IMG/VR virus record: IMGVR_UViG_3300030118_004023
Coordinates: 1 to 31,727 of that record
DNA from: a virus
Strand: one strand, 5' to 3'
DNA: 31,727 nt
The position numbers were made by a program, and so were the translations under genes. Positions 3,882-16,025 of the stretch are shown here, piece by piece (the first letter of the stretch is position 1; each line of letters opens with the position of its first letter). The notes under the pieces were generated by a model, which was not told where the DNA came from, ran no database searches, and saw only the letters and a list, made by a program, of their open reading frames with translations.

Positions 3882-4159
3882 TATTTGAAGAGTTATTAGA
3901 AAAAAATCCAAAGGCACTTATCTGGGAAGGATTTGACCAAGCCTATATTGGATATACTTATAGTCATATAGAAAAAGAACCTGTAGCTGTTTATGACTAC
4001 TACACAATGCTTGATTTAGTTATTGACGGTATATTCGAAACAGAAGATAATGTTACAGATGACGAAGCTTTTAATCTAGCCATAGAACATTTAGATTACA
4101 ATGTTATAGGCGGAAGTCTTGGTGAGTTTACACCAGTAGTTATGTACAAAGATGGTTAA
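3878..4159 (+). CDS. conserved phage protein of unknown function
   Basis: A 93-residue acidic protein. It has the pattern of a widespread phage family of unknown function: ALIWEGFDQAYIGY (13-26), then VAVYDY (37-42), a helical middle, and a C-terminal 'DYNVIGGSLGEFTPVVMY' (73-90). I recognise the pattern from marine and other phage genomes but know no assigned activity. The start overlaps the HNH stop by 4 nt and the end overlaps terL by 8 nt, so it is translated as part of the packaging block. That context fits a small packaging- or head-associated factor, which remains inference. Confidence 0.75.
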   Translation: MIFEELLEKNPKALIWEGFDQAYIGYTYSHIEKEPVAVYDYYTMLDLVIDGIFETEDNVTDDEAFNLAIEHLDYNVIGGSLGEFTPVVMYKDG

Positions 4160-5387
4160 CAATAAGTATGTACCCAAACTACCTGCTTTACATCCAGGTC
4201 AATTAGAAGTAGCAAAGAATCCTGCTCGTTGGAAAATACTTTGTGCAGGCAGGCGATTTGGTAAAACTAGACTTGGTGTACAAATGTGTATGGAGGTTGC
4301 CTTACGAGGTGGTAGAGCTTGGTGGGTAGCTCCTACATTTTCAATTGCAAGAGTTGGTTGGCGAGACATCGCTGCTAGTGCAAAATCATTTCCAAAAGAA
4401 ATAGAACCAAAAGTATCCCTAGCTAATATGCAAATAGATTTAGCTAATGGTGGTTCTATTGCAGTAAGGTCTGCAGATAATCCACAAAGACTTCGTGGTG
4501 AAGGTTTGGACTTTCTTGTTATGGATGAGGCTGCATTCGTAAAGCCAGAAGTTTGGGCAGAAGTATTACGACCTACACTTACTGAAAGAAGAGGTTCTGC
4601 TTTATTTATATCTACTCCTATTGGAAGAGATAACTGGTTTTTTGATTTATGGGAAACAGCAGAAGATGGTGAGAACTGGGCAAGATTTAGATTTGCTACT
4701 ACAGACAATCCTGCAATAGACCCTGAAGAAGTTGAAGCAGCAAGAACAGAAGTTGGTTCAATAGTTTTTGCACAAGAGTATTTAGCTGAGTTTGTTGATG
4801 CAGGTCAAGGTATGCTCAAACCTGAATGGTTAAGATACTTTGCTTTAATACCAGATAACAATGGAAGACTTAAGTGTCATGTTGATGGTTCTGAATATTA
4901 CCTTGATGCTTTAGATAAGTATGGAGTAGTGGATTTAGCTACTACTAAAAATAAAGACTCTGACTATACAGTAATAACATCTTTCGCAAGAACTCCTGAT
5001 AATCGTTTACTTGTTATTGATATGCTTAGAAGTAAGATGGAGGGACCTGACATCATCCCTGCTATAAAACGAGCAATCGATAAAAATAAGCTACAATATG
5101 TAGGTATAGAACGCCAAGGTTTTCAAACTACGATTATTCAGATGGCGCAACGGTCTGGTATTCGTGTTAAAAATCTTAAGACTGATAAAGATAAAGTCAC
5201 AAGAGCACTTCCTCTTGCAGCGAGAATGGAATCTGGTGATGTCTACTTACAAAGAGATACGCATTGGCTTCCAGAAGTTGAAAGAGAAATAATGACTTTT
5301 CCTGCAGGAGCTCATGATGATATTATCGATACTCTTTCTTACGGAGTTCAACTGCTACAAGAGAAAAGAAGCTGGAGCGCATATTAA
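4152..5387 (+). CDS. terL: terminase large subunit
   Basis: The DNA-packaging motor, 411 residues. The N-terminal ATPase has Walker A at 32-39 (AGRRFGKT), a W57-W58/APTF segment, a coupling-type RLRG (113-116) and Walker B LVMDEA with D125 and E126. SALFISTPIG is the C-motif-like strand. The C-terminal RNase H-like nuclease shows DLATTKNKDSDYTVI (first Asp near 260), an ERQGFQ strand near 322-327, and the terminal acidic pair in HDDIID near 388-393. All required motifs are present. The length is on the short side for the family. It overlaps the upstream 93-residue gene by 8 nt and its TAA overlaps the portal ATG (TAATG). Confidence 0.95.
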   Translation: MVNNKYVPKLPALHPGQLEVAKNPARWKILCAGRRFGKTRLGVQMCMEVALRGGRAWWVAPTFSIARVGWRDIAASAKSFPKEIEPKVSLANMQIDLANGGSIAVRSADNPQRLRGEGLDFLVMDEAAFVKPEVWAEVLRPTLTERRGSALFISTPIGRDNWFFDLWETAEDGENWARFRFATTDNPAIDPEEVEAARTEVGSIVFAQEYLAEFVDAGQGMLKPEWLRYFALIPDNNGRLKCHVDGSEYYLDALDKYGVVDLATTKNKDSDYTVITSFARTPDNRLLVIDMLRSKMEGPDIIPAIKRAIDKNKLQYVGIERQGFQTTIIQMAQRSGIRVKNLKTDKDKVTRALPLAARMESGDVYLQRDTHWLPEVEREIMTFPAGAHDDIIDTLSYGVQLLQEKRSWSAY

Positions 5388-7990
5388 TGGCTGAGAACAA
5401 GTCAAGGTTTGAAAGAGCGATAGATTGGTTGAACACACCAACTGACGCAAGAATAAGAAGAGAACAAAAAGGTTTATTAATAAATCAATCAGAGTATTCC
5501 TACTTAAATCAAGCAGTTATGGGATACAATACTCAATCAGGTTATTTTGACCATAAGAAACTTGCTGAATTAGGAGATGGTACAGGTAACTCAGCAGTCA
5601 TTGCATGTTTGCAAGTTTTAGCTACAGCTTTTGCAGAACCATCATTATTAGTTTCATCAAGAAACTCTGAGGGTGATTATGAAAGAGATATGAATCATCC
5701 TTTAGTTCAATTATTTAGAAGACCTAATCCTTACATGACACAACAATTATTAGCAAACTATATAGTTACATCTCTTAATGCAAATGGCGATTCTTTTATT
5801 TATATGAACAGAAACAATAGAGGTCAAGTTGTAGAACTAGTTCCACTAATGCCACATCTTGTTGAAGCAAAAGGTAACGAAAACGAACTTATAACTCATT
5901 ATCAATATCAACCACAGGGCGGTGTACAGGGTGAAGACTCTGTAAAAATACTAAAGAAAGATATGATTCATTTACGCCAAAATGTTGACCCAAACAACAT
6001 GAGGCGAGGTCTTGCTCCACTTAGAGGCGTTCTAAGAGAAATAGCAGGAGACGAAGCTGCTGGACAATATACAGCTGCTTTGTTACACAACATGGCGATA
6101 CCCGGAGTTATCCTATCTCCAAGAGATGATGCAATGGGTGGTCCAACTAGAGAAGAAGCTGAAGCAATCTCTGAAATGTACAAAGAGAAATTCGGTGGTA
6201 AGAACAGAGGTGCTCCTATGGTCTTATCAGGTGCTATGAATGTAGAAGTAGTATCTTTTTCTCCAGACCAGATGAAGTTAGCTGAACTAAGAAGAATACC
6301 AGAAGAAAGAGTCGCAGCAGTACTTGGCGTTCCAGCTGTGCTTGCAGGACTTGGTGCTGGTTTAGATGCAGCAACTTTTAATAATACAAAAGAACTAAGA
6401 GAGTTCTTTACTGAGTCAAAACTAGTCCCAATGTGGACTATGGTTGCGCAAGAAATGACTCATCAATTGTTACGACCAGAGTTCAACGGCAACGACAATC
6501 AATACTGTGAGTTTGATGTCGGTAATGTTCGAGCTTTAGCTGATGACAAAGACAATCTCTACAAACGCATGAATACTGCCGTACAAGGGGGTTGGGTAAC
6601 AATTGGCGAAGCTAGAAAAGTCGTAGGTCTTGAAGCAGACGATAGACATGATGTTTATCTAAGACCTTTGAATATGATTCAAGTTACAGAAGATGGTTCA
6701 CCACTTCTTAATGATTCAGAACCTGCAACGGATAATAACAATGATGAGAAAAATCTAACAACCCTTGACTTACCGCCAGAAGTTGAAAGAACTGATGAAA
6801 TTATTGGAACGCCTACTGGATATGAAATGGAAGGTAAGTATATTGCAGAAATGCCTAATGGTGCTTATTGTGTCATAAGCCATGATGATGGAAAAGTGAT
6901 AAAATGTTTTGATACCAGGAGAGAGGCAGAGAACTTTTTAAATAATAAGAAGCAAGGAGATATCGAAGAAATAAAAGTCTCACTAGAAGAAGCAGAAGTA
7001 ATGTATGAACGAGGCGATGAATTACACAGTCCAGAAGAAAAGAAAACAAACTTTCCAAGAAGTGGAGATGACCAAAAAATAACATTATCTAATTCACAAC
7101 ATCCACAATTTCCTGACTTTGCATATGTAAAAGATTTAAAAGATAACTATCCAGAGATATGGAGAAGAGCAGGTACCGGTGGTAATCCTCCAACTTCTTT
7201 TACTGGTAATGATGCTTTTAATAGATGGTCAGCTTATAAAAAAGGTGACAGAAGTGAATCTATTCTTAACTGGATTAAAAGACGAGAAAGATTTATGAAT
7301 AGACATAAAGGTAATACAAAACTAAATGGGACTATTGCCGTTATGAAATGGGGTGGTGTTACAGCTAGTGGAGTTTCTGCTATGAAAAAAGTAGTTAACG
7401 ATTATAAAAAAGTAGTAAGACAAAGAAGAAAGAAAGCGATTGGTATGGCTGAAGAAATAGTAATGAAGCAACTTTCTGCAAGAGTTAGAAAAGCTCTACA
7501 GAAAAAAGTTGAAGACCACAATAAAAAGAATCCAAAACATAGAGCAACATTAAGAATGTTATCTGCAGTATTTAGAAGAGGTGTTGGAGCATATAGAACT
7601 TCACCAGGTTCTGTAAGAGGTAATGTAACCTCAGCAGACCAATGGGCAATGGCTAGAGTGAATGGTTTCTTAAGAGCATTAAGAACTGGTAGATTTAGAA
7701 GAAAACCTTATGACCAAGATTTACTTCCTAGCTCACATCCATTATCTTCTAAGAGTTCTGGTAACAAAGCAGAATCTGTAAGAGTAGGACAAGCTGTTAG
7801 TTGGTCAATCAACAAAGACCCAGACCCACCATCAGTTGTACATGGTATAGTTACTTCAGTTAACAACGCAGACAAAGAAGCAACAATGGTTGTATGGGCT
7901 AGACTAGAAAATGGCGACCATCAAAAGACTGATAGAAAAGTAACAATGCCGATATCAAAACTCAGAATTATATCGGACTTTCGACAATAA
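5387..7990 (+). CDS. portal protein with ~400-aa C-terminal extension
   Basis: Residues 1 to about 445 are an HK97-type portal, the dodecameric ring through which DNA enters the head: NSAVIACLQVLATAFAE, 'HPLVQLFRRPNPYMTQQLL', 'LVPLMPHLVEA', 'GLAPLRGVLREI' and 'GVPAVLAGLGAGLDAATFNN'. HK97 portals are about 420 residues, so this protein is twice as long. After an acidic linker come a short 'GAYCVISHDDGKVIKCFDT' module (about 490), NFPRSGDDQ onward (about 555-660), a very basic helical region, a block with AYRTSPGSVRGNVTSADQWA and LLPSSHPLS (about 736-785), and a Tudor/SH3-like VGQAVSWSINKDPDPPSVVHG (about 797-862). I have seen these modules attached to other phage head proteins, but their roles are unknown to me. 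The frame is continuous. Confidence 0.9.
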   Translation: MAENKSRFERAIDWLNTPTDARIRREQKGLLINQSEYSYLNQAVMGYNTQSGYFDHKKLAELGDGTGNSAVIACLQVLATAFAEPSLLVSSRNSEGDYERDMNHPLVQLFRRPNPYMTQQLLANYIVTSLNANGDSFIYMNRNNRGQVVELVPLMPHLVEAKGNENELITHYQYQPQGGVQGEDSVKILKKDMIHLRQNVDPNNMRRGLAPLRGVLREIAGDEAAGQYTAALLHNMAIPGVILSPRDDAMGGPTREEAEAISEMYKEKFGGKNRGAPMVLSGAMNVEVVSFSPDQMKLAELRRIPEERVAAVLGVPAVLAGLGAGLDAATFNNTKELREFFTESKLVPMWTMVAQEMTHQLLRPEFNGNDNQYCEFDVGNVRALADDKDNLYKRMNTAVQGGWVTIGEARKVVGLEADDRHDVYLRPLNMIQVTEDGSPLLNDSEPATDNNNDEKNLTTLDLPPEVERTDEIIGTPTGYEMEGKYIAEMPNGAYCVISHDDGKVIKCFDTRREAENFLNNKKQGDIEEIKVSLEEAEVMYERGDELHSPEEKKTNFPRSGDDQKITLSNSQHPQFPDFAYVKDLKDNYPEIWRRAGTGGNPPTSFTGNDAFNRWSAYKKGDRSESILNWIKRRERFMNRHKGNTKLNGTIAVMKWGGVTASGVSAMKKVVNDYKKVVRQRRKKAIGMAEEIVMKQLSARVRKALQKKVEDHNKKNPKHRATLRMLSAVFRRGVGAYRTSPGSVRGNVTSADQWAMARVNGFLRALRTGRFRRKPYDQDLLPSSHPLSSKSSGNKAESVRVGQAVSWSINKDPDPPSVVHGIVTSVNNADKEATMVVWARLENGDHQKTDRKVTMPISKLRIISDFRQ

Positions 7991-8069: not shown

Positions 8070-9392
8070 ATGGATAACGAATCTAAAAATATAGATATAG
8101 AGTTAAAAGACGACTCTGGACAAGTTGAAGCAGTCTTTAGTATATTCAACTCATTAGATAGCGATGGAGATGTAGTAGTCCCAGGTGCTGTCAAATCAGG
8201 TTTTAAAAATAATCAAGTTCCTATGGTGTGGTCTCACAAATGGGATATGCCAATAGGCAAAGGAACAATCACACAAGATGATGATAAGGCTGTATTCAAA
8301 GGTGAATTTTTTATGGATACAGATTCTGGTAAAGAAGCTTATAACCTAGTAAAGAATATGGGTGACATGCAACAATGGTCATTCGGTTACAAAGTTAATG
8401 ACTCTGAGTTTCATAAAACAAAAGTAAATGAAGATGAAGAAGCTCATGCTAGATATCTAAAAGATTTAACAGTTTATGAAGTATCCCCAGTTCTTGTTGG
8501 TGCAAATCAAGATACTTACACACTAGCTATCAAAAGCAATAAAGAATTATTAAAAGAGATAGCTAAAGAACAGGAAGAAGAAAAAGCAGCTTTGAAAACA
8601 GACATGTTTGATAATCCAGGCGAAGCTATGGAAAGGTCAAAACAAATGTCATGTGCAGTTGGTATTCATACTCACGAATCAGGCGGTAAAACCGTTTTCA
8701 TGCCTTGTAAAACTCATGAAGAATATGAGGAGGCAATCAAAAAAGGTTATGACGATGACGATGAGGATGACGACAAAAAAGGATACGGAGATGACCAAGA
8801 AGATATGAAGTCTTGTAAATATCACGAAGGAGGTCGTTGTATGAAAGAATACGATGATGATGGTAAAAAATCATCAGAAGAAGATTTAGAGGTTTCAGAA
8901 GAAAGCAAGTCTTTCTCTGAAGAAGTCAAAGATGTGCTTGCTGCATTGGATGACTTAGTATCTCGAGCAAAAGCAATAGCTATGTTAAGAGATAAAGATG
9001 GAAGGAAATTAGGCGCAAAAGCCACTGAAGCACTTCGTGCAGTCGCAGATGACTTAAACGATGCTTGGTCCGAGATTGATGAGTTCATAGGAAATGTCGG
9101 AACTGACGGTGCTTTAGAGTTAGAAATAGAAGAAGAACTTGTGGAAGATGAACAATCTGAAGAAGTTGCTGAGGCTTCAACTGATACTATTGATGTTGAA
9201 ACAGAAGCTGAAGTAGAGGAAGAAACTGTAACAGAGGAACCTGTTGTAGAAGAACCTGAGTCTGAAGATTCTGAAGAAGATACTCCAGAAGATAACACTG
9301 AATCAGCTAACGATGAGGAATTTGATGCCGAGTGGGTAAGAGCTCAACAATTAATTGCTGAGTCTCTAGCCGAAGAAATAGAAGAAGTATAA
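8070..9392 (+). CDS. HK97-family prohead protease with acidic C-terminal extension
   Basis: A capsid maturation serine protease (U35/S78 clan). Residues 8-158 form the catalytic domain, with FNSLDSDGDVVVPGA (26-40), H56 in VWSHKWDMPIG, S104 in QQWSFGYKV and a probable third residue E137 in VYEVSPVLVGAN. The fold is typical, but the protein is 440 residues where the protease alone needs about 200. The remainder contains a C/H-rich segment (C195, H200, H202, C213, H216, then CKYHEGGRC), aspartate runs, a helical stretch (about 290-345) and a glutamate-rich tail. The tail may serve as scaffold or be released on maturation. It is 21 nt before the major capsid gene. Confidence 0.9.
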   Translation: MDNESKNIDIELKDDSGQVEAVFSIFNSLDSDGDVVVPGAVKSGFKNNQVPMVWSHKWDMPIGKGTITQDDDKAVFKGEFFMDTDSGKEAYNLVKNMGDMQQWSFGYKVNDSEFHKTKVNEDEEAHARYLKDLTVYEVSPVLVGANQDTYTLAIKSNKELLKEIAKEQEEEKAALKTDMFDNPGEAMERSKQMSCAVGIHTHESGGKTVFMPCKTHEEYEEAIKKGYDDDDEDDDKKGYGDDQEDMKSCKYHEGGRCMKEYDDDGKKSSEEDLEVSEESKSFSEEVKDVLAALDDLVSRAKAIAMLRDKDGRKLGAKATEALRAVADDLNDAWSEIDEFIGNVGTDGALELEIEEELVEDEQSEEVAEASTDTIDVETEAEVEEETVTEEPVVEEPESEDSEEDTPEDNTESANDEEFDAEWVRAQQLIAESLAEEIEEV

Positions 9393-9413: not shown

Positions 9414-10637
9414 ATGAGTGAAGTTAAAGAACTCATGGACAAAATTGCTGCAAAAAGAACTGAGCTTAAAGAAGTATTCGAGTCTACTGAAGACGGCAAG
9501 TACACCTCCGAACAAAAAGAGGAAATCAAAAAAAGAAATGATGAACTTGCTGAATTAGTAGAAGATGTTTCCATTGAGAAGAAAAAACTTCAAAATGAAA
9601 AAGCATTAGAAGATGATTCAAAGCCAGTTTCTGAAATGCCTCAACCTGCAGAAGCAGTAGAAGCAAAATCAGTAGGTGAGCAATTTGTTCAGACCGATGC
9701 TTATAAAAATTATTTAAGCAGCGGTGTTAAAGGTGTTGACTCTCACATAGAGACAAAAACAACTTTAACAACCACAGGATATCCACCAGAGACCTTGCGT
9801 CAACCGGGTATCTTAGAAACTGCTCTCAGAGACCCAAATGCTGTCATCAATTTATTTGATGTAATCAACACAGACCAAAATGCTTTCTCTTACTTAGAAG
9901 AGACAACATTTACAAACAATGCTGCAGAAGCAGCAGAAGGTTCTGCAGTTGGTGAGGCAGCTTTGGCATTCACAGAGAAGACAGAATCAATCCGTAAAAT
10001 GGGTGTATTTATCCCAGTTACAGATGAATTATTAGCTGATGAAGCTGGTATTCAAGGTTACTTGAACAGCAGACTTCAAACAATGATTCGTTTAAGATTA
10101 GACAGTCAGCTCCTTTCTGGAGATGGTACTGCACCTAACTTAGAAGGAATATTAGACGCTGGTAAATCAAGTGTTGGTTCATCCGACTTTAATAGTTACA
10201 ATGGTAACTTAGGAAGAATTGGCGCAATTTACAATGCAATTACTGATATTAGAGTAAATGCGTTTACAGAGCCAGATGCAATTATTATGCACCCTAACGA
10301 CTGGAACCAAATTGTAACATCAGTTACTGATGTAACAACTTCAGGTTCAAAGAACCCATTGTTCGTAGTCGCTGGCGGATTTGGTGCAGATGCTGCGCCA
10401 ACAATCTGGGGTCTAAGAGTTATCCCTACTACTGCAATTTCCAACAACACAGTGCTTGTTGGTAAATTCGGTGGCGGTGAAGCAGCTAATGTTGTTATGA
10501 GACAAGGTATGGAATTAGCCGTATCTGATTCACATAGCGATTTCTTTACAAAGAATCAATTAGCTATTAGAGCTACAATGAGAGTCGGTTTCCCTGTTTA
10601 CAGGCAAGCAGCTTTCCACAAAATACTAAATATGTAA
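9414..10637 (+). CDS. HK97-fold major capsid protein
   Basis: The main head shell protein, 407 residues. Residues 1 to about 100 are a charged coiled-coil delta-like scaffold (MSEVKELMDKIAAKRTELKE, then KKRNDELAELVEDVSIEKKK) ending in a linker around VGEQFVQTDAYKNYLSSG, where the upstream protease probably cuts. The HK97 core follows: TTGYPPETLRQPGI, 'IRKMGVFIPVTDELLADEAG', 'LDSQLLSGDGTAPNLEGIL', 'EPDAIIMHPNDWNQI', 'TIWGLRVIPTTAI' and 'NQLAIRATMRVGFPVYRQAAF'. GGAG lies 9 nt before the ATG. Immediately downstream is the only strong terminator of the late operon, fitting high expression of this gene. Confidence 0.95.
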   Translation: MSEVKELMDKIAAKRTELKEVFESTEDGKYTSEQKEEIKKRNDELAELVEDVSIEKKKLQNEKALEDDSKPVSEMPQPAEAVEAKSVGEQFVQTDAYKNYLSSGVKGVDSHIETKTTLTTTGYPPETLRQPGILETALRDPNAVINLFDVINTDQNAFSYLEETTFTNNAAEAAEGSAVGEAALAFTEKTESIRKMGVFIPVTDELLADEAGIQGYLNSRLQTMIRLRLDSQLLSGDGTAPNLEGILDAGKSSVGSSDFNSYNGNLGRIGAIYNAITDIRVNAFTEPDAIIMHPNDWNQIVTSVTDVTTSGSKNPLFVVAGGFGADAAPTIWGLRVIPTTAISNNTVLVGKFGGGEAANVVMRQGMELAVSDSHSDFFTKNQLAIRATMRVGFPVYRQAAFHKILNM

Positions 10638-10657: not shown

Positions 10658-10691
10658 GAAGAGAGCCGGTTAAACCGGCTTTCTTCTTTTT
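10658..10691 (+). terminator. Rho-independent terminator after capsid gene
   Basis: Stem AGCCGGT-TAA-ACCGGCT (10664-10680), extended by a G.U pair and GAAGA/TCTTC to 13 pairs (10658-10686), then five Ts (10687-10691). It lies 20 nt after the capsid stop. Downstream late genes would rely on read-through or antitermination. Confidence 0.9.
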
Positions 10692-10712
10692 ATAGGGTAA
10701 AATGATTTCATT

Positions 10713-10985
10713 ATGTCAGATTATATAAAACCAGAAAAAAGCATTTGGAAATTAGCAGACGGTACAATTTGGGAAGGTGCTCAAGCAGAGCTTCCTAAAT
10801 CAAACGCTTCTCTAATAGCAAAAGCTGGAAACGAGTATCCAACCGCTTGGCTTAAAGAACAAGGTTGGGGAAAGAAAGCTCCTGCTAAGAAAGCTCCTGC
10901 AAAAAAAGCTCCTGCTGAAAAAGCAGCAGCAAAAAAACCTGCTGAAACCAAAGCTGTCAAAAAAGAAGAAGTCGAAGACAAGTAA
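10713..10985 (+). CDS. small protein with KKAPA repeat tail
   Basis: A 90-residue protein placed between the capsid and connector genes. Residues 1-53 look globular (SIWKLADGTIWEGAQAELP, then EYPTAWLKEQGWG). From residue 54 the protein is lysine/alanine/proline-rich with three KKAPA-type units (KKAPAKKAPAKKAPAEKAA), like histone H1 tails or phage head decoration linkers, and ends acidic (KKEEVEDK). The repeats are also direct repeats at DNA level. Small proteins here in other siphoviruses can be decoration proteins or gpFI-like packaging helpers, but I do not recognise the family. AGGG lies 15 nt before the ATG, a loose spacing. Confidence 0.7.
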   Translation: MSDYIKPEKSIWKLADGTIWEGAQAELPKSNASLIAKAGNEYPTAWLKEQGWGKKAPAKKAPAKKAPAEKAAAKKPAETKAVKKEEVEDK

Positions 10986-10994
10986 GGAGTCTGA

Positions 10995-11639
10995 ATGGCT
11001 CTTTGTAGCGTAAGTGAAGTAGAAAGATTTCTAGAAATAGATGTTGATACTACTTTACAAAATCATATTGAATTTACTTTTATACCGTATGTAGATGCAG
11101 CTATAAAAAGATTTTTAGGTTACGATGTTGAACAACAAACCTACACAGAAGTCTTTGATGGTAACGAACAACAAGATTTATTCTTAAGACATATCCCTAT
11201 AGCTTCTATAACTTCTGTAACTGAAGATAGCAATACATTAGTATCTGGTAATGAAAAAGATTATGTGCATTACTCAAATGGAAGACTTAGAAGAATTGTT
11301 GTAAGGTGGTCTGGTATAAAACCACAGAATGTATCTGTAACATATGTAGGTGGTTATGCTGCTGCAGATATACCAAAATCAATTAGTCTTACTTCAGCTA
11401 GAGCTACGGCAAGATTATTCATGACATCTTTACAAACATCTGCAAAAGCAGATACAGGAACAGTATCATCTCACTTAAGTGATAATACAAATACAACAGG
11501 TTTTGACATTGCGCTTTCAGAAAGAATAGGTGACTATGATGTATCTTTTGCTGATGTCGTGATTCAGAATTTACAACCAGTTTTAACAAATGCGGATATG
11601 GCAATACTTCAACCATTCAGAAGTAGATTTTTTGTTTAA
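10995..11639 (+). CDS. head-tail connector (HK97 gp6-like adaptor)
   Basis: A 214-residue adaptor that docks under the portal ring. The N-terminal helical part matches gp6-type connectors (CSVSEVERFLEIDV, 'FIPYVDAAIKRFLGYDV'). A beta-rich insertion follows (EVFDGNEQQDLFLRHIPIAS, then VSVTYVGGYAAADIPKSI), and the C-terminal helix includes SARATARLFMTSL. The 'R/HIPIASITSVTEDS' pattern with YTEVFDG is characteristic. AAGGAG sits 7 nt before ATG. Length is greater than the about 100 residues of HK97 gp6 but normal for connectors of this type. It is followed by the accessory cassette rather than directly by the closure protein. Confidence 0.8.
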   Translation: MALCSVSEVERFLEIDVDTTLQNHIEFTFIPYVDAAIKRFLGYDVEQQTYTEVFDGNEQQDLFLRHIPIASITSVTEDSNTLVSGNEKDYVHYSNGRLRRIVVRWSGIKPQNVSVTYVGGYAAADIPKSISLTSARATARLFMTSLQTSAKADTGTVSSHLSDNTNTTGFDIALSERIGDYDVSFADVVIQNLQPVLTNADMAILQPFRSRFFV

Positions 11640-11665
11640 TGTAACTAATATGAAAGAGGATATTT

Positions 11666-12307
11666 ATGGTACACAGGAAAGCGCCTACATTAGAAGAAGC
11701 TACAGAGTTATTCAAAAGTAACCCTGAAAAAATGCTCAATGACTGGGCAGAAGAATGGGGTGTTACACATGAAAGAGTTAGACAGCTTAGGATAGCTTCT
11801 GGCGTACCTCAAAGAGGTGCATACAACGAAGAAACAGCAGAAGCAATACTTGATATTATTAGAACAGGCAGAGGAGGTTTATCTACACCTAGAACTTATC
11901 AAGAGCAAATAATTGGTTATGAAAGATTCAAAACATGGATTGAAGAAGTTGAAGGATTACAAGAAAGAGTAACTCAAGCTCAAGAAGAAGCAAAGAAATT
12001 TTTAACAGACCCAATAGAAAAACAATGTAAATATTGCAGGACTTGGTTAGAAGTAGAAAAATTTGCTAGAAATCAAAAGTATCTTGATGGATATACAAAG
12101 TTTTGTAAAGATTGTTTGGAATATATAAAAGAACAAAAAGCAAATATGGGTGATGAAAAAAGTAAAACTTGTTTGGGTTGTAAAGAAACTTTGCCAATAT
12201 CAAACTTTACTAAAAATGTAAATTCAAAAGATGGTTATAAAATATTTTGTAAAAAATGTCACACTTCAGATAAAAAGAAAAAAAGAAGACGCAATGCCAA
12301 GATATGA
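11666..12307 (+). CDS. HTH plus double zinc-finger protein
   Basis: A 213-residue putative nucleic-acid-binding protein. Residues 23-47 form a sigma-region-4-like helix-turn-helix (DWAEEWGVTHERVRQLRIAS). Residues 50-115 are helical with a coiled-coil stretch (VEGLQERVTQAQEEAKKF). Two similar zinc modules follow, C121-C124...C147-C150 and C169-C172...C195-C198, each ending in DGY(T/K)xFCKxC. Such modules often precede an HNH domain, but none follows here; the protein ends in a basic tail (KKKKRRRNAKI). AGAGGA lies 6 nt before ATG. It overlaps the next gene by 14 nt. Its position inside head genes is odd for a regulator. Late-gene control or DNA binding is inferred, not known. Confidence 0.75.
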   Translation: MVHRKAPTLEEATELFKSNPEKMLNDWAEEWGVTHERVRQLRIASGVPQRGAYNEETAEAILDIIRTGRGGLSTPRTYQEQIIGYERFKTWIEEVEGLQERVTQAQEEAKKFLTDPIEKQCKYCRTWLEVEKFARNQKYLDGYTKFCKDCLEYIKEQKANMGDEKSKTCLGCKETLPISNFTKNVNSKDGYKIFCKKCHTSDKKKKRRRNAKI

Positions 12308-12539
12308 TTATCAATGTATAAGCGAAGAATGCAAACTAAATGCAGAGATTTCTCATTCAATTAATTCAGACCCAGAAATAAAATGTCCTTCATGCAAATC
12401 AGTAATGAAAAGATTAATATCTAGAAATGTAATGTTTGAAACACCAGTAGATGTTGAATGGGAGAAAGACCCATCAGACTTAACTGAAAAATCTTTCAGA
12501 CAATTTGAAAAAGCAAAGAAAACTAAATATAGATGGTAA
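12294..12539 (+). CDS. FmdB-type zinc ribbon protein
   Basis: An 81-residue protein whose first 45 residues match the FmdB-family zinc ribbon: MPRYDYQCISEEC, then DPEIKCPSCKSVMKRLISR, with ligands C8, C13, C31 and C34 (the first knuckle is CX4C instead of the usual CX2C). The rest is charged and helical (SFRQFEKAKKTKYRW). I place the start at ATG 12294, where the family's N-terminus begins. An earlier in-frame ATG at 12231 lies inside the previous gene and would add unrelated residues. The gene overlaps its upstream neighbour by 14 nt and the AIPR-like gene by 7 nt. FmdB-like proteins have no settled function and are proposed regulators. Confidence 0.8.
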   Translation: MPRYDYQCISEECKLNAEISHSINSDPEIKCPSCKSVMKRLISRNVMFETPVDVEWEKDPSDLTEKSFRQFEKAKKTKYRW

Positions 12540-13711
12540 AAGAAGAATTAGAAGATATACAAAATGGTAATGGTAGATACTATCTAAAATTTGCATCGTA
12601 TGCTGTTAACTCTGACCCAATCAATGACAATGTCAATCATGTAACTTGCATAGTACCAACTAAAGAATTTGCAGTTGATAGACCAGGACAAAAACAAATA
12701 TTTCCTATTCATCAAGATGTAATTCAAACAGAAGTATTACCTGATGCACAGAAAGAAGTTTTAGCTTCTATAAAAGAACATTCTGGAGAATCAGGAGTAT
12801 TACATTTAAAATCTCAAGGTATAACAATTTATGCAGAATATGTAAAAATAAACGAAAGCGATAAAACAATAAGAATTAGTATTGAGGATTTTTATAATGA
12901 AGGTATTGTTGATGGCTCAGCTTTTTATAATATTATAAAAGATATACCATCAGATGACTTTCCAAAAAAAAGTTATGTAGTGGTTAACATAAGTGTTGGT
13001 TTAAATCACAGACATACTTCAGATATCATTAAAGCAAAAAATAAAAAACTTAGAAAAAGTAAAGAAGTAAAACTAACAAGAAATGATTTTCAATGGATAC
13101 AGGACATTGTTGATAATACTAACTACAAAGATAAAATTGATGTAGTTACTGTTTTGTCTTTAATAAATTTATTTAGAGGTAACACTTACGATGCTGATGT
13201 AGATAGCCAACCTATAAATAGTTATTCTGACCCAGAACTAGTTATACAAGATTATAAAAAGAACAAAGATGAATTTAAAAAATATGCAGATATACTTCCA
13301 GATATTTTATATTTTTACGACTATCTAAATGTTATGGGTCAAGAAATCTGGACATCTAAAAATGGTTCTTTAGCAAGTTCAGGATTATCTTTACCGTACA
13401 AACAAAAATTTTACGAGTTTCCTATGCTAAATAAAAAATTAGATTACAAATTTCATGATGGTGTCGCGTATTCAATTCTTAATGGTCTAAGGATGTATAT
13501 TATATATCTTGATAACAAAGCTACTTGGTCTAAAGATGTAGAAGTTATTAAAAAAATATTTTTAACTATTCTGCCTGAACTTATAAAAATAGTAAGAAAT
13601 CATAATAAACAAATTGGTTACAACACACACTTACTCGGCAAAAGCAAACTACTTTACAGTATTATGTATAAAGAATTGCTCATGGGTGATATGTTAAATC
13701 AATTTCAGTAA
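12533..13711 (+). CDS. AIPR-like (abortive infection family) protein
   Basis: A 392-residue protein with a motif series resembling AIPR proteins, known from bacterial abortive-infection loci: HLKSQGITIYAEYV (91-104, compare the family's 'NNGIT' strand), GIVDGSAFY (124-132, compare 'QIVNGxQT'), GLNHRHTSDIIKA (156-168, where relatives have TN-Q), DVVTVLSLINLFR (203-215), SYSDPELVI (230-238) and ADILPDILYFYDYL (252-265). It is shorter than many AIPR proteins (500-700 residues), mainly at the N-terminus. The start ATG overlaps the FmdB-like stop by 7 nt, so it belongs to the late operon. Possible roles are superinfection exclusion, counter-defence or a non-defence role. The assignment is from memory of the family pattern, not a search. 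Confidence 0.65.
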   Translation: MVKEELEDIQNGNGRYYLKFASYAVNSDPINDNVNHVTCIVPTKEFAVDRPGQKQIFPIHQDVIQTEVLPDAQKEVLASIKEHSGESGVLHLKSQGITIYAEYVKINESDKTIRISIEDFYNEGIVDGSAFYNIIKDIPSDDFPKKSYVVVNISVGLNHRHTSDIIKAKNKKLRKSKEVKLTRNDFQWIQDIVDNTNYKDKIDVVTVLSLINLFRGNTYDADVDSQPINSYSDPELVIQDYKKNKDEFKKYADILPDILYFYDYLNVMGQEIWTSKNGSLASSGLSLPYKQKFYEFPMLNKKLDYKFHDGVAYSILNGLRMYIIYLDNKATWSKDVEVIKKIFLTILPELIKIVRNHNKQIGYNTHLLGKSKLLYSIMYKELLMGDMLNQFQ

Positions 13712-13731
13712 TCTTATAGTAAAGTGGTCAT

Positions 13732-14070
13732 ATGCCTTTACGACATAGATATTTACCGGAAACAGTTACAGTTCAAACAGTTAGTGAATCCTCTGTGGAT
13801 GAAAGAGGACTTCCTAGTTCTCAATGGGCTGACACTTTTACAAATGTAAAAGTAAAGTTTGAAAGTCAAGGTATAGAAGAAGATAGAGATGGTAGAAATA
13901 CAACTATAGAAACTTTTAATGTTTATGTTGAACAAGATGTGGCAATCGTACCAGGAGATAGATTAGTAAAAGGTGGTAGTGAATATCACGAAATAATCAA
14001 TGTGATGGATGTAAAGGATAGGTACGGTAAGGAGTGTTATAAAATGCTCCAAACATTAGTGAGAACCTAA
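13732..14070 (+). CDS. head-closure (stopper) protein
   Basis: A 112-residue protein of the phage head-tail joining type (HK97 gp7/SPP1 gp16-like), which seals the channel below the connector. Visible features are a short helix, then LPETVTVQTVSES (8-20), ERGLPSSQWADTFTNVKVKF, an ETFNVYVEQDVAIVPGDRL strand-turn ('GDRL' is common in the family) and HEIINVMDVKD followed by KMLQTLVR. The length fits. It begins 20 nt after the AIPR-like gene with weak AGTGG upstream, and its stop overlaps the next ATG (TAATG). In comparable phages it directly follows the connector gene. Confidence 0.8.
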   Translation: MPLRHRYLPETVTVQTVSESSVDERGLPSSQWADTFTNVKVKFESQGIEEDRDGRNTTIETFNVYVEQDVAIVPGDRLVKGGSEYHEIINVMDVKDRYGKECYKMLQTLVRT

Positions 14071-16025
14071 TGCCAAGCTATTTCAGTTTTGGTAAAACAA
14101 AAGTAAAAGCCGATAAAAGAGCCGGTCGTAAAGGTAAATTATTAGGTGGTTTTCGAGACGACCTATACAAATTTGGTAAAGTATCTGGTGAAGTAAATGC
14201 TTTCTTACAAAATCCATTTTTACAATCATCAAGAAGAACTGCGTATACTACTGCAAGAGCTGCAGGTACTTTATCTGCTTTAACAACTGGAGATTTCAAA
14301 AGAAAGTATGGTTCTGTACAAAGCTCAATAATTCGTGGTTCTAGAATAGCAACAGGTAGATTAAGTGGTTTAGCTATACAACAAGTTGTTCCGAGGTCTT
14401 TGGGACCTATCATGGGAAGACAGGTAAGAAGAGAGCTAGGTAAATACATCTCATCAAGTCCTTTTTACAGAAACCTAAATAAAAAAATAGAAAGCACTGT
14501 AGCTGGTTTTTTTAACTCCTACGCTCAACCCCAATACAATCATGTAGTCAAGTCAATGAATACAAGAGAATTTATGGATTTTCAAATAGCAAGAAATGAA
14601 GACTTAATTAGAAGGTCTGCACCTGATATTTCTTCTGGTCAATACATGTTAGGAGTAGGAGCACAAGACTTGGGTTTGAATATCAAAGATAAATATCTAG
14701 ACCAAACAATGTATGACGAAGATAGAGGACAAGTGTTTGATGAAAATTTTACAATAAGGTCAATGATAAAACCTGGAAGAAATGCAGAATATAAAACAAT
14801 GGATGTTTTTGGATTTTCTGAGCCAGGGCAAGCAAGAGAGTTTTTGTTGAAATCAATTCATAGACAATTTGTAAAAGAGGGTAAATCTAAAAAATATTTA
14901 TTTAAAGGTGGCATAAGAATTGGTTCAAGTAGAAAAAATGGTACAAAAGCTGATTTGTTTCCTTGGATATGGTTAGTAGAGTATGGTGGTCCAATTATCC
15001 AACCAGTCAACACATGGGATGGTAAAAGAATGGTTGTGAAAGATATAAAAAAATATATACCTCCTACATTGTTTGTTACTAGGTCGACAATTGCTGTAAA
15101 CAATATGAAGATAAAAGGTGCAAAAATAAAAGTTAATACTGCTATGCCAAGAGTAGCCGGTTTTAAAAATCCATTAGCTTATATGCAGGATGTATTAGGA
15201 ACAAGAGGAGCTTATGGGAAACAGGTAAGAAATCAAGGAATGAGAGTAAAAAGAAAAGGTGGTATTTCATATAGAAATAAAAGTTTGTTTTCTGCACTTA
15301 ATAGAAGAGATAGAGGCAGACATCCTGACATGGGAATTAAAAGAGATAATATAGTAGGTAGAAATAGAAGATATTATAAATATCAACAAAGACATGAACC
15401 TATTGGTGTAAAAGTTCATAGTACTCATGGAGTACAGTATTCACAAGAATTACAAGACGCATTAGGAGTTTCTTTTGCACCGGCTGAAATAAATGCTTCT
15501 ATTGTATTTAAAAATGTAGGACAAATTAAAGGTGGCGTTACAGGTAGAGAAAAATTCCTTACTGATTTATTAAGTAATAGAAATCCTTCCAAAGCAGGCG
15601 GTGCAAGTAGAGCTGGTTTATTACATGAAGTAGAATTGTTAAATAACATGGGAGAGGGAGAAAGAGCATTTAATGCAACCGCAGCATCAAACTTTATAGA
15701 CTTTGACCAGTCCGATGTATCAGGTCAATCAGGATTTGGTAAACTATCCGGTAAAAAATTATCTGGTTTTATTAAGAAAAATTATAATGTTCGTGTTGTT
15801 AGAGAATCTGGTGCTGGTGGTTCAAATAGATACAATGTTGTTTTGACTGCAAAAAATGCTGGCAAAAGAAAATCACGAAGAAGTCCATCTGATAAAAGAT
15901 TTAATAAAACTGCTAGAAGACCTTTGCAGAAATTTACAAATGATGATAAGAGATTGGCAAGACTTATGCTCCAGAATGCTAATTATGAAGAGATAATTGA
16001 TGCTGCCAAGAGATTTAATAGTTAA
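14070..16025 (+). CDS. large basic neck protein (tentative HK97 gp10-like)
   Basis: A 651-residue, strongly basic protein in the slot where siphoviruses encode an HK97 gp10-like neck or tail-completion protein of about 130 residues. Around residues 295-350, FPWIWLVEYGGPIIQPVNTW and KDIKKYIPPTLFVTRS resemble the gp10 'YAxxVEFGT...PxPFxxPA' region. The rest is unrecognised: a basic N-terminus (KADKRAGRKGKLLGG), small-residue/arginine stretches, GKQVRNQGMRVKRKGG, an RNRRYYKYQQRHEPIG segment and another basic run near the C-terminus (KNAGKRKSRRSPSDKR). No membrane or catalytic motif is seen. DNA or tail-tube contact in the neck is possible. It ends 18 nt before the tail terminator gene. Confidence 0.6.
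   Translation: MPSYFSFGKTKVKADKRAGRKGKLLGGFRDDLYKFGKVSGEVNAFLQNPFLQSSRRTAYTTARAAGTLSALTTGDFKRKYGSVQSSIIRGSRIATGRLSGLAIQQVVPRSLGPIMGRQVRRELGKYISSSPFYRNLNKKIESTVAGFFNSYAQPQYNHVVKSMNTREFMDFQIARNEDLIRRSAPDISSGQYMLGVGAQDLGLNIKDKYLDQTMYDEDRGQVFDENFTIRSMIKPGRNAEYKTMDVFGFSEPGQAREFLLKSIHRQFVKEGKSKKYLFKGGIRIGSSRKNGTKADLFPWIWLVEYGGPIIQPVNTWDGKRMVVKDIKKYIPPTLFVTRSTIAVNNMKIKGAKIKVNTAMPRVAGFKNPLAYMQDVLGTRGAYGKQVRNQGMRVKRKGGISYRNKSLFSALNRRDRGRHPDMGIKRDNIVGRNRRYYKYQQRHEPIGVKVHSTHGVQYSQELQDALGVSFAPAEINASIVFKNVGQIKGGVTGREKFLTDLLSNRNPSKAGGASRAGLLHEVELLNNMGEGERAFNATAASNFIDFDQSDVSGQSGFGKLSGKKLSGFIKKNYNVRVVRESGAGGSNRYNVVLTAKNAGKRKSRRSPSDKRFNKTARRPLQKFTNDDKRLARLMLQNANYEEIIDAAKRFNS

Follow-up and report, generated by a model that had tools for sequence, protein, structure and literature searches.

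Gene Order and the P0001 Reading Frame

The window, a stretch of viral DNA of 31,727 nucleotides (IMG/VR record IMGVR_UViG_3300030118_004023), contains a phage head operon whose genes and features are listed in Table 1. The capsid and terminase are less than 35% identical to those of the nearest isolates. The gene of interest encodes P0001, and its ATG at position 12533 overlaps the stop codon of the zinc-ribbon gene (12537–12539), a tight junction that is found in 76 of 79 sampled loci. The zinc-ribbon frame was listed from 12231; its likely start is the position in Table 1, where the homologues begin with M(P/A)RYDY. A preliminary description of this DNA reported an AIPR-like gene with a characteristic motif series, coupled to the structural genes of the head operon, located between the connector and head closure and lacking its own promoter. 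The reading frame is open and contains all four of the quoted strings (SQGIT, GIVDGSAFY, LSLINLFR, and ILPDILYFYDYL), and the overlapping junction bears out the coupling. The placement is likewise correct, with a phrog_442 adaptor before the gene and a phrog_763 protein after it, and with two zinc-ribbon genes intervening before P0001. Promoter-like sites number 28 versus 34.6 ± 5.6 in shuffled sequences and are thus not in excess. The list of forward-strand terminator-like sites has none within 10686–14251, and the hairpin that follows the capsid gene is the sole strong site of this kind nearby.

Table 1. Genes and features of the head operon in the window.
Feature	Coordinates	Strand	Evidence or remark
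Large terminase	4152..5387	+	TIGR01630, E 3e-23
Portal	5387..7990	+	TIGR01537, E 6e-41
Prohead protease (S78)	8070..9392	+	PF04586, E 2e-22
HK97-fold major capsid protein	9414..10637	+	PF05065, E 2e-38
Strong terminator-like hairpin	10658..10686	+	After capsid gene, upstream of AIPR gene
Head-tail adaptor (connector)	10995..11639	+	phrog_442, E 1e-19
Endonuclease VII-like zinc-ribbon protein	11666..12307	+	213 aa, HTH-like string
Zinc-ribbon (FmdB / Zn_ribbon_8-like) protein	12294..12539	+	About 81 aa; stop overlaps AIPR start
AIPR-derived protein P0001	12533..13711	+	392 aa; tblastn, hhalign, orthologues at same place
Head closure / head-tail adaptor	13732..14070	+	phrog_763, E 6e-5; kept in all relatives with the interval
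Fast-diverging 651-aa protein	14070..16025	+	Median 29% identity; tail genes downstream

Searches with the phage alignment found 35 viral contigs, and 24 non-redundant full-length sequences of 388–394 residues were left after adding loci from other scans. These orthologues, together with a dN/dS below 1, rule out a chance reading frame, and there are no internal stops among the 37 full-length loci that were found first.

Two of the neighbouring genes deserve comment. In the endonuclease VII-like protein, zinc ribbons come after a string that resembles sigma region 4 (WGVTHERVRQLR), and a catalytic part was not recognised. Its gene is common to the head operons of phages that carry the AIPR gene, of their sister phages and of the phage in which the AIPR slot is empty, and the product is probably a conserved DNA-binding protein. 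The 651-residue protein diverges far faster than every neighbour and has no Pfam match; it may be an HK97 gp10-like tail-completion protein in extended form, a label suggested by inference. A tie between the AIPR gene and a size above 600 residues of this large protein was considered and rejected, since contig L182 encodes a 633-residue version and has no AIPR gene.

Relationship to AIPR Proteins and Predicted Structure

Searched by itself, P0001 has no match among the Pfam, PHROG, NCBIfam and PADLOC models, and thus matches no known head or structural family in Pfam or PHROG. A PDB sequence search with P0001 was uninformative, and searches of viral_contigs with P0001 and P0002 as single queries returned no matches. 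The relationship to AIPR proteins became apparent in other comparisons. A tblastn search of plasmids gave seven records with E-values down to 1e-10 that cover 69–85% of the query; six of these are annotated as an AIPR family protein under the match, the seventh carries no annotation, and four plasmid proteins that were tested match PF10592 at about E 1e-31. The orthologue L012/P0007 reaches 32.8 bits against PF10592, above the cut-off of 25, and 9 of the 29 rows of the alignment, which include four cellular AIPR proteins, match this model at E ≤ 0.01. A phage-only profile of 18 orthologues aligned by hhalign with a profile of short (~400 aa) cellular AIPR proteins at 99.5% (E 2.9e-22, 357 columns), while capsid and adaptor control profiles gave 0.1–0.2%. 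The match to long AIPR proteins is weaker (65%, E 6e-5, 126 columns). Together, the tblastn, hhalign and orthologue matches establish homology to AIPR, and by these sequence comparisons P0001 is a genuine, though remote, relative that belongs to the short-AIPR homology group as a diverged member. The family assignment in the preliminary description is therefore upheld. Of the checks it proposed, the Pfam AIPR profile recognises the orthologue and not P0001 itself, and the structural comparison agrees, with the predicted P0001 fold matching a phage 'AIPR protein' at E 4e-6.

The preliminary description regarded the shortened N-terminus as a sign of a specialised version. This does not hold, as the ~400-residue cellular AIPR subfamily has the same layout, and P0001 is short at its N-terminus only relative to AIPR proteins of 581–749 residues. 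The short proteins are encoded on plasmids and chromosomes of Bacillota, several of them adjoining a divergent HTH regulator, and representatives such as WP_015065196.1 have the same length as P0001 and align over the full length with 19–25% identity; the phage clade, in contrast, lies in a late operon. The short cellular proteins keep the NRG, DGGHTY and ARNTS motifs and a YRENE segment, which the phage clade lacks. The long proteins contain an AIPR domain with a weak profile match to the phage clade, and feature NNG, NGGQT and NSQN motifs and an N-terminal extension of 200–300 residues, neither of which is present in the phage clade. None of the sampled orthologues has this extension, and only about 80 residues precede the conserved core. 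The extensions of the long AIPR proteins L190–L193 contain, as judged by eye, a restriction-endonuclease-like D..GGID....QxK string; no Pfam domain was found in the two that were tested.

AIPR genes do occur in other phages, in other settings. Bacillus phage vB_BmeM-Goe8 (QDP42941.1) carries one among tRNA-related and hypothetical genes, and phage contig L201 encodes a canonical short AIPR protein at 3905–5080, which retains DGGHTY; its gene lies on the other strand from the large genes that flank it.

The family-wide anchors are held by two of the four quoted strings, the G of SQGI and the DG of GIVDG, but the neighbouring signature residues have been replaced. Relative to cellular AIPR proteins, N(N/R)G has become SQG, HG, KG or, in three rows, QS, and DGGHTY has become DGANLY, DGSAFY, DGSYIY, DGSHIY or DGGNLY. 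The Arg of NRG and the Thr/Ser of DGGHT are lost in 25 of 25 sequences, and the His survives only in the two DGSHIY rows. Motif III, ARNTS, is replaced by LDSK-like strings in most phage members. The erosion is graded, in that the subclade of the window retains part of motif III as AKNKK, AKNTK or ARNTK. No conserved Rx4-6H motif is found in the P0001 orthologues, and the HEPN reading taken from the literature (PMC3506569) was rejected for P0001 on this ground.

The structure was modelled from the 29-row alignment (pLDDT 81.8, pTM 0.56); an earlier AlphaFold model from four sequences was poor (pLDDT 48) and was left out. Against solved structures, Foldseek gave nothing below E 0.001; Noc came closest at E 0.07. 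The first ten VIA-align rows are all ParB, Noc or PadC, with Z scores of 4.2–5.6 (all under 8) over model residues 21–172 and, for the ParB-type rows, an rmsd of 3.1–3.9 over 88–96 residues, and the eleventh row is BrxU, a GmrSD enzyme. In a viral fold library the best named match is the 'AIPR protein' mentioned above, followed in lower rows by GmrSD-N and DNA-sulfur-modification (DndB-like) proteins. The absence of other folds from such a list is not evidence against them. Z scores of this size are no proof by themselves, but the predicted N-terminal half is likely a ParB/Srx-like fold because these rows agree with each other and with the literature on DUF262 and DndB proteins (PMC4619093). 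GmrS/DUF262, DndB/DGQHR and ParB/Srx-fold proteins share with P0001 the position of the DG pair and, probably, the predicted fold (residues 26–171); P0001, however, has no QQR/QHR residues, no HNH domain and no detected sequence similarity to them. The DGQQR residues of GmrS are proposed to be used in NTP binding and hydrolysis (PMC4619093). This DGQQR/DGQHR-like motif is absent from the phage clade, where only the DG is left, a remnant which may mean that the nucleotide chemistry was lost.

It is improbable that the substitutions are compensated and that P0001 is still an active AIPR-type enzyme whose retained cellular activity serves a purpose such as DNA processing or regulation. Such an activity would fit what nearly all orthologues keep, namely the DG pair, a GxNxxxxGK-like stretch near the C-terminus and many polar residues, as well as the parts of motifs II and III that are retained in the subclade of the window. 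However, the uniform loss of the NRG Arg and the DGGHT Thr/Ser stands against it, as does the intact DGGHTY of the L201 protein, which indicates that intact forms are available to phages.

Distribution, History and Selection

The loci described above were found through the AIPR gene itself. To counter this selection bias, a second sample was drawn with portal, adaptor and capsid queries; it gave 39 distinct adaptor plus head-closure genotypes with a complete interval. In 27 of the 39 the order is adaptor, endonuclease VII-like gene, zinc ribbon, AIPR and head closure. Eleven form a sister lineage without AIPR in which the order is adaptor, zinc ribbon, optional cargo, endonuclease VII-like gene and head closure, and in the remaining genotype, L182, adaptor, endonuclease VII-like gene and head closure follow each other and the AIPR slot is empty. 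The same gene in the same place in related phages had been suggested as a check, and AIPR lies between the zinc ribbon and head closure in each of the lineage's 27 distinct relatives, which were picked by other genes. In a tree of adaptor and head closure the AIPR-bearing phages form a single clade (support 0.84), with L182 as the nearest outgroup when the tree is rooted at its midpoint. The simplest account is that the gene was acquired once, in the ancestor of the lineage, in the accessory interval that runs from the endonuclease VII-like gene to head closure, and was never lost but inherited intact with its neighbours. Since AIPR is absent from 12 distinct related genotypes with a complete interval, it does not belong to the core head proteins; it is a fixed accessory gene under purifying selection.

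The cargo of the sister lineage is mostly antisense and includes genes for a C5 methyltransferase (PF00145), MT-A70, Dam, and PAPS-reductase-like and SET-domain proteins. In L167, L170, L159 and L181 the antisense cargo has the zinc-ribbon gene on one side and the endonuclease VII-like gene on the other. A PF00145 match occurs in 4 of 5 sister records versus 0 of 11 AIPR-bearing records, a contrast that rests on two clades and may reflect one historical event. Extra genes are also seen where the endonuclease VII-like gene is followed by the zinc ribbon, namely a 259-residue gene with a weak DUF6065 match in L010 (9594–10373) and inserts in L047 and L048.

Close pairs of AIPR genes (0.1 < dS < 0.6, n = 10) have a median dN/dS of 0.04. 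The wider set gives 0.31, a value that saturation and alignment have probably inflated; the corresponding figures are 0.16 (capsid) and 0.21 (head closure). At the protein level, AIPR has a median identity of 51% and capsid one of 86%. The identity of AIPR correlates with that of the 651-residue protein (r 0.90), the endonuclease VII-like protein (0.88) and head closure (0.82), and less so with capsid (0.43); such co-divergence is what would be expected if the block is inherited together. That the gene is a selfish or neutral passenger carried by linkage is very improbable. The interval is accessory and variable between lineages, with extra genes that come and go, as such a passenger would suggest, but all full-length orthologues are in frame, dN/dS is far below 1 and no losses are seen in the 27 genotypes.

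Possible Roles in Abortive Infection, Counter-Restriction and the Virion

AIPR proteins have been described in defence loci and restriction-modification operons (PMC2292703; PMC3506569), and the preliminary description favoured an abortive-infection protein that excludes rival phages late in infection. Superinfection exclusion or another anti-competitor function of this kind would suit the family's occurrence in such loci and the faster divergence of AIPR relative to the head genes, and is nevertheless quite unlikely. The protein has no effector domain, no HEPN motif and no PADLOC match, and its signatures are eroded. The gene is fixed and not swapped like typical defence cargo, and the close pairs are under strong purifying selection. 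No defence-island or restriction-modification context was found, and every member of the lineage has AIPR in a phage head operon. The lost signature residues and the lack of a recognisable toxin part indicate that a repurposed phage protein, perhaps with a counter-defence function, is more likely than an abortive-infection gene.

A virion or assembly role ranks next after counter-restriction. It is rather unlikely that the AIPR fold was recruited as a neck or head accessory protein or chaperone, perhaps together with the 651-residue product. The fixed place in the head-tail block, the overlapping start codon, the steady length, the lack of losses and the stronger co-variation with the 651-residue and endonuclease VII-like proteins than with capsid are all consistent with this role. 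However, the same operon is built without AIPR in L182 and in the sister phages, L182 has a large gene of the 14070 kind all the same, no structural family was matched, and linkage alone can account for the co-divergence. The absence of AIPR from the sister phages, which have the same head operon, makes a core virion role less likely. A broader formulation, a domesticated defence-family protein with a degraded nucleotide site that works in or from the virion, in assembly, in DNA protection or as an injected anti-restriction decoy, would be somewhat doubtful.

The explanation that we consider best overall, and hold tentatively at a little under even confidence, is that P0001 is a diverged short AIPR protein, gained once, with a ParB-like fold and a binding-based counter-restriction function. 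The anti-restriction step, taken by itself, is possible and slightly less secure. Counter-restriction is preferred because the interval of the sister phages holds methyltransferases and because of the ParB-fold kinship with restriction sensors. The N-terminal half would retain a ParB/Srx-like fold whose nucleotide site no longer works, and P0001 would then act through binding and not catalysis. It could be produced late through coupling to the zinc-ribbon gene, and its target might be host restriction or modification-sensing systems with related ParB-fold sensors of the AIPR, GmrS or DndB types, for which it may serve as a decoy or blocking partner. P0001 might also be carried in the virion like the T4 internal proteins, which are injected GmrSD inhibitors and provide a precedent for counter-restriction (PMC12373910). 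Late expression sits poorly with an anti-restriction role if the protein is not packaged, and the antisense orientation of the sister methyltransferases, which means that their timing may differ, also counts against counter-restriction.

An AIPR gene is usually taken for an abortive-infection gene, though little is known of AIPR biochemistry. The present case warns against a defence annotation for an 'AIPR' match that lies in the late region of a phage, and a head-operon AIPR protein without the signature residues is a natural test of the role of the fold without them. Additionally, the AIPR-bearing, methyltransferase-bearing and empty-slot relatives offer a testable link of head-operon cargo to host restriction.
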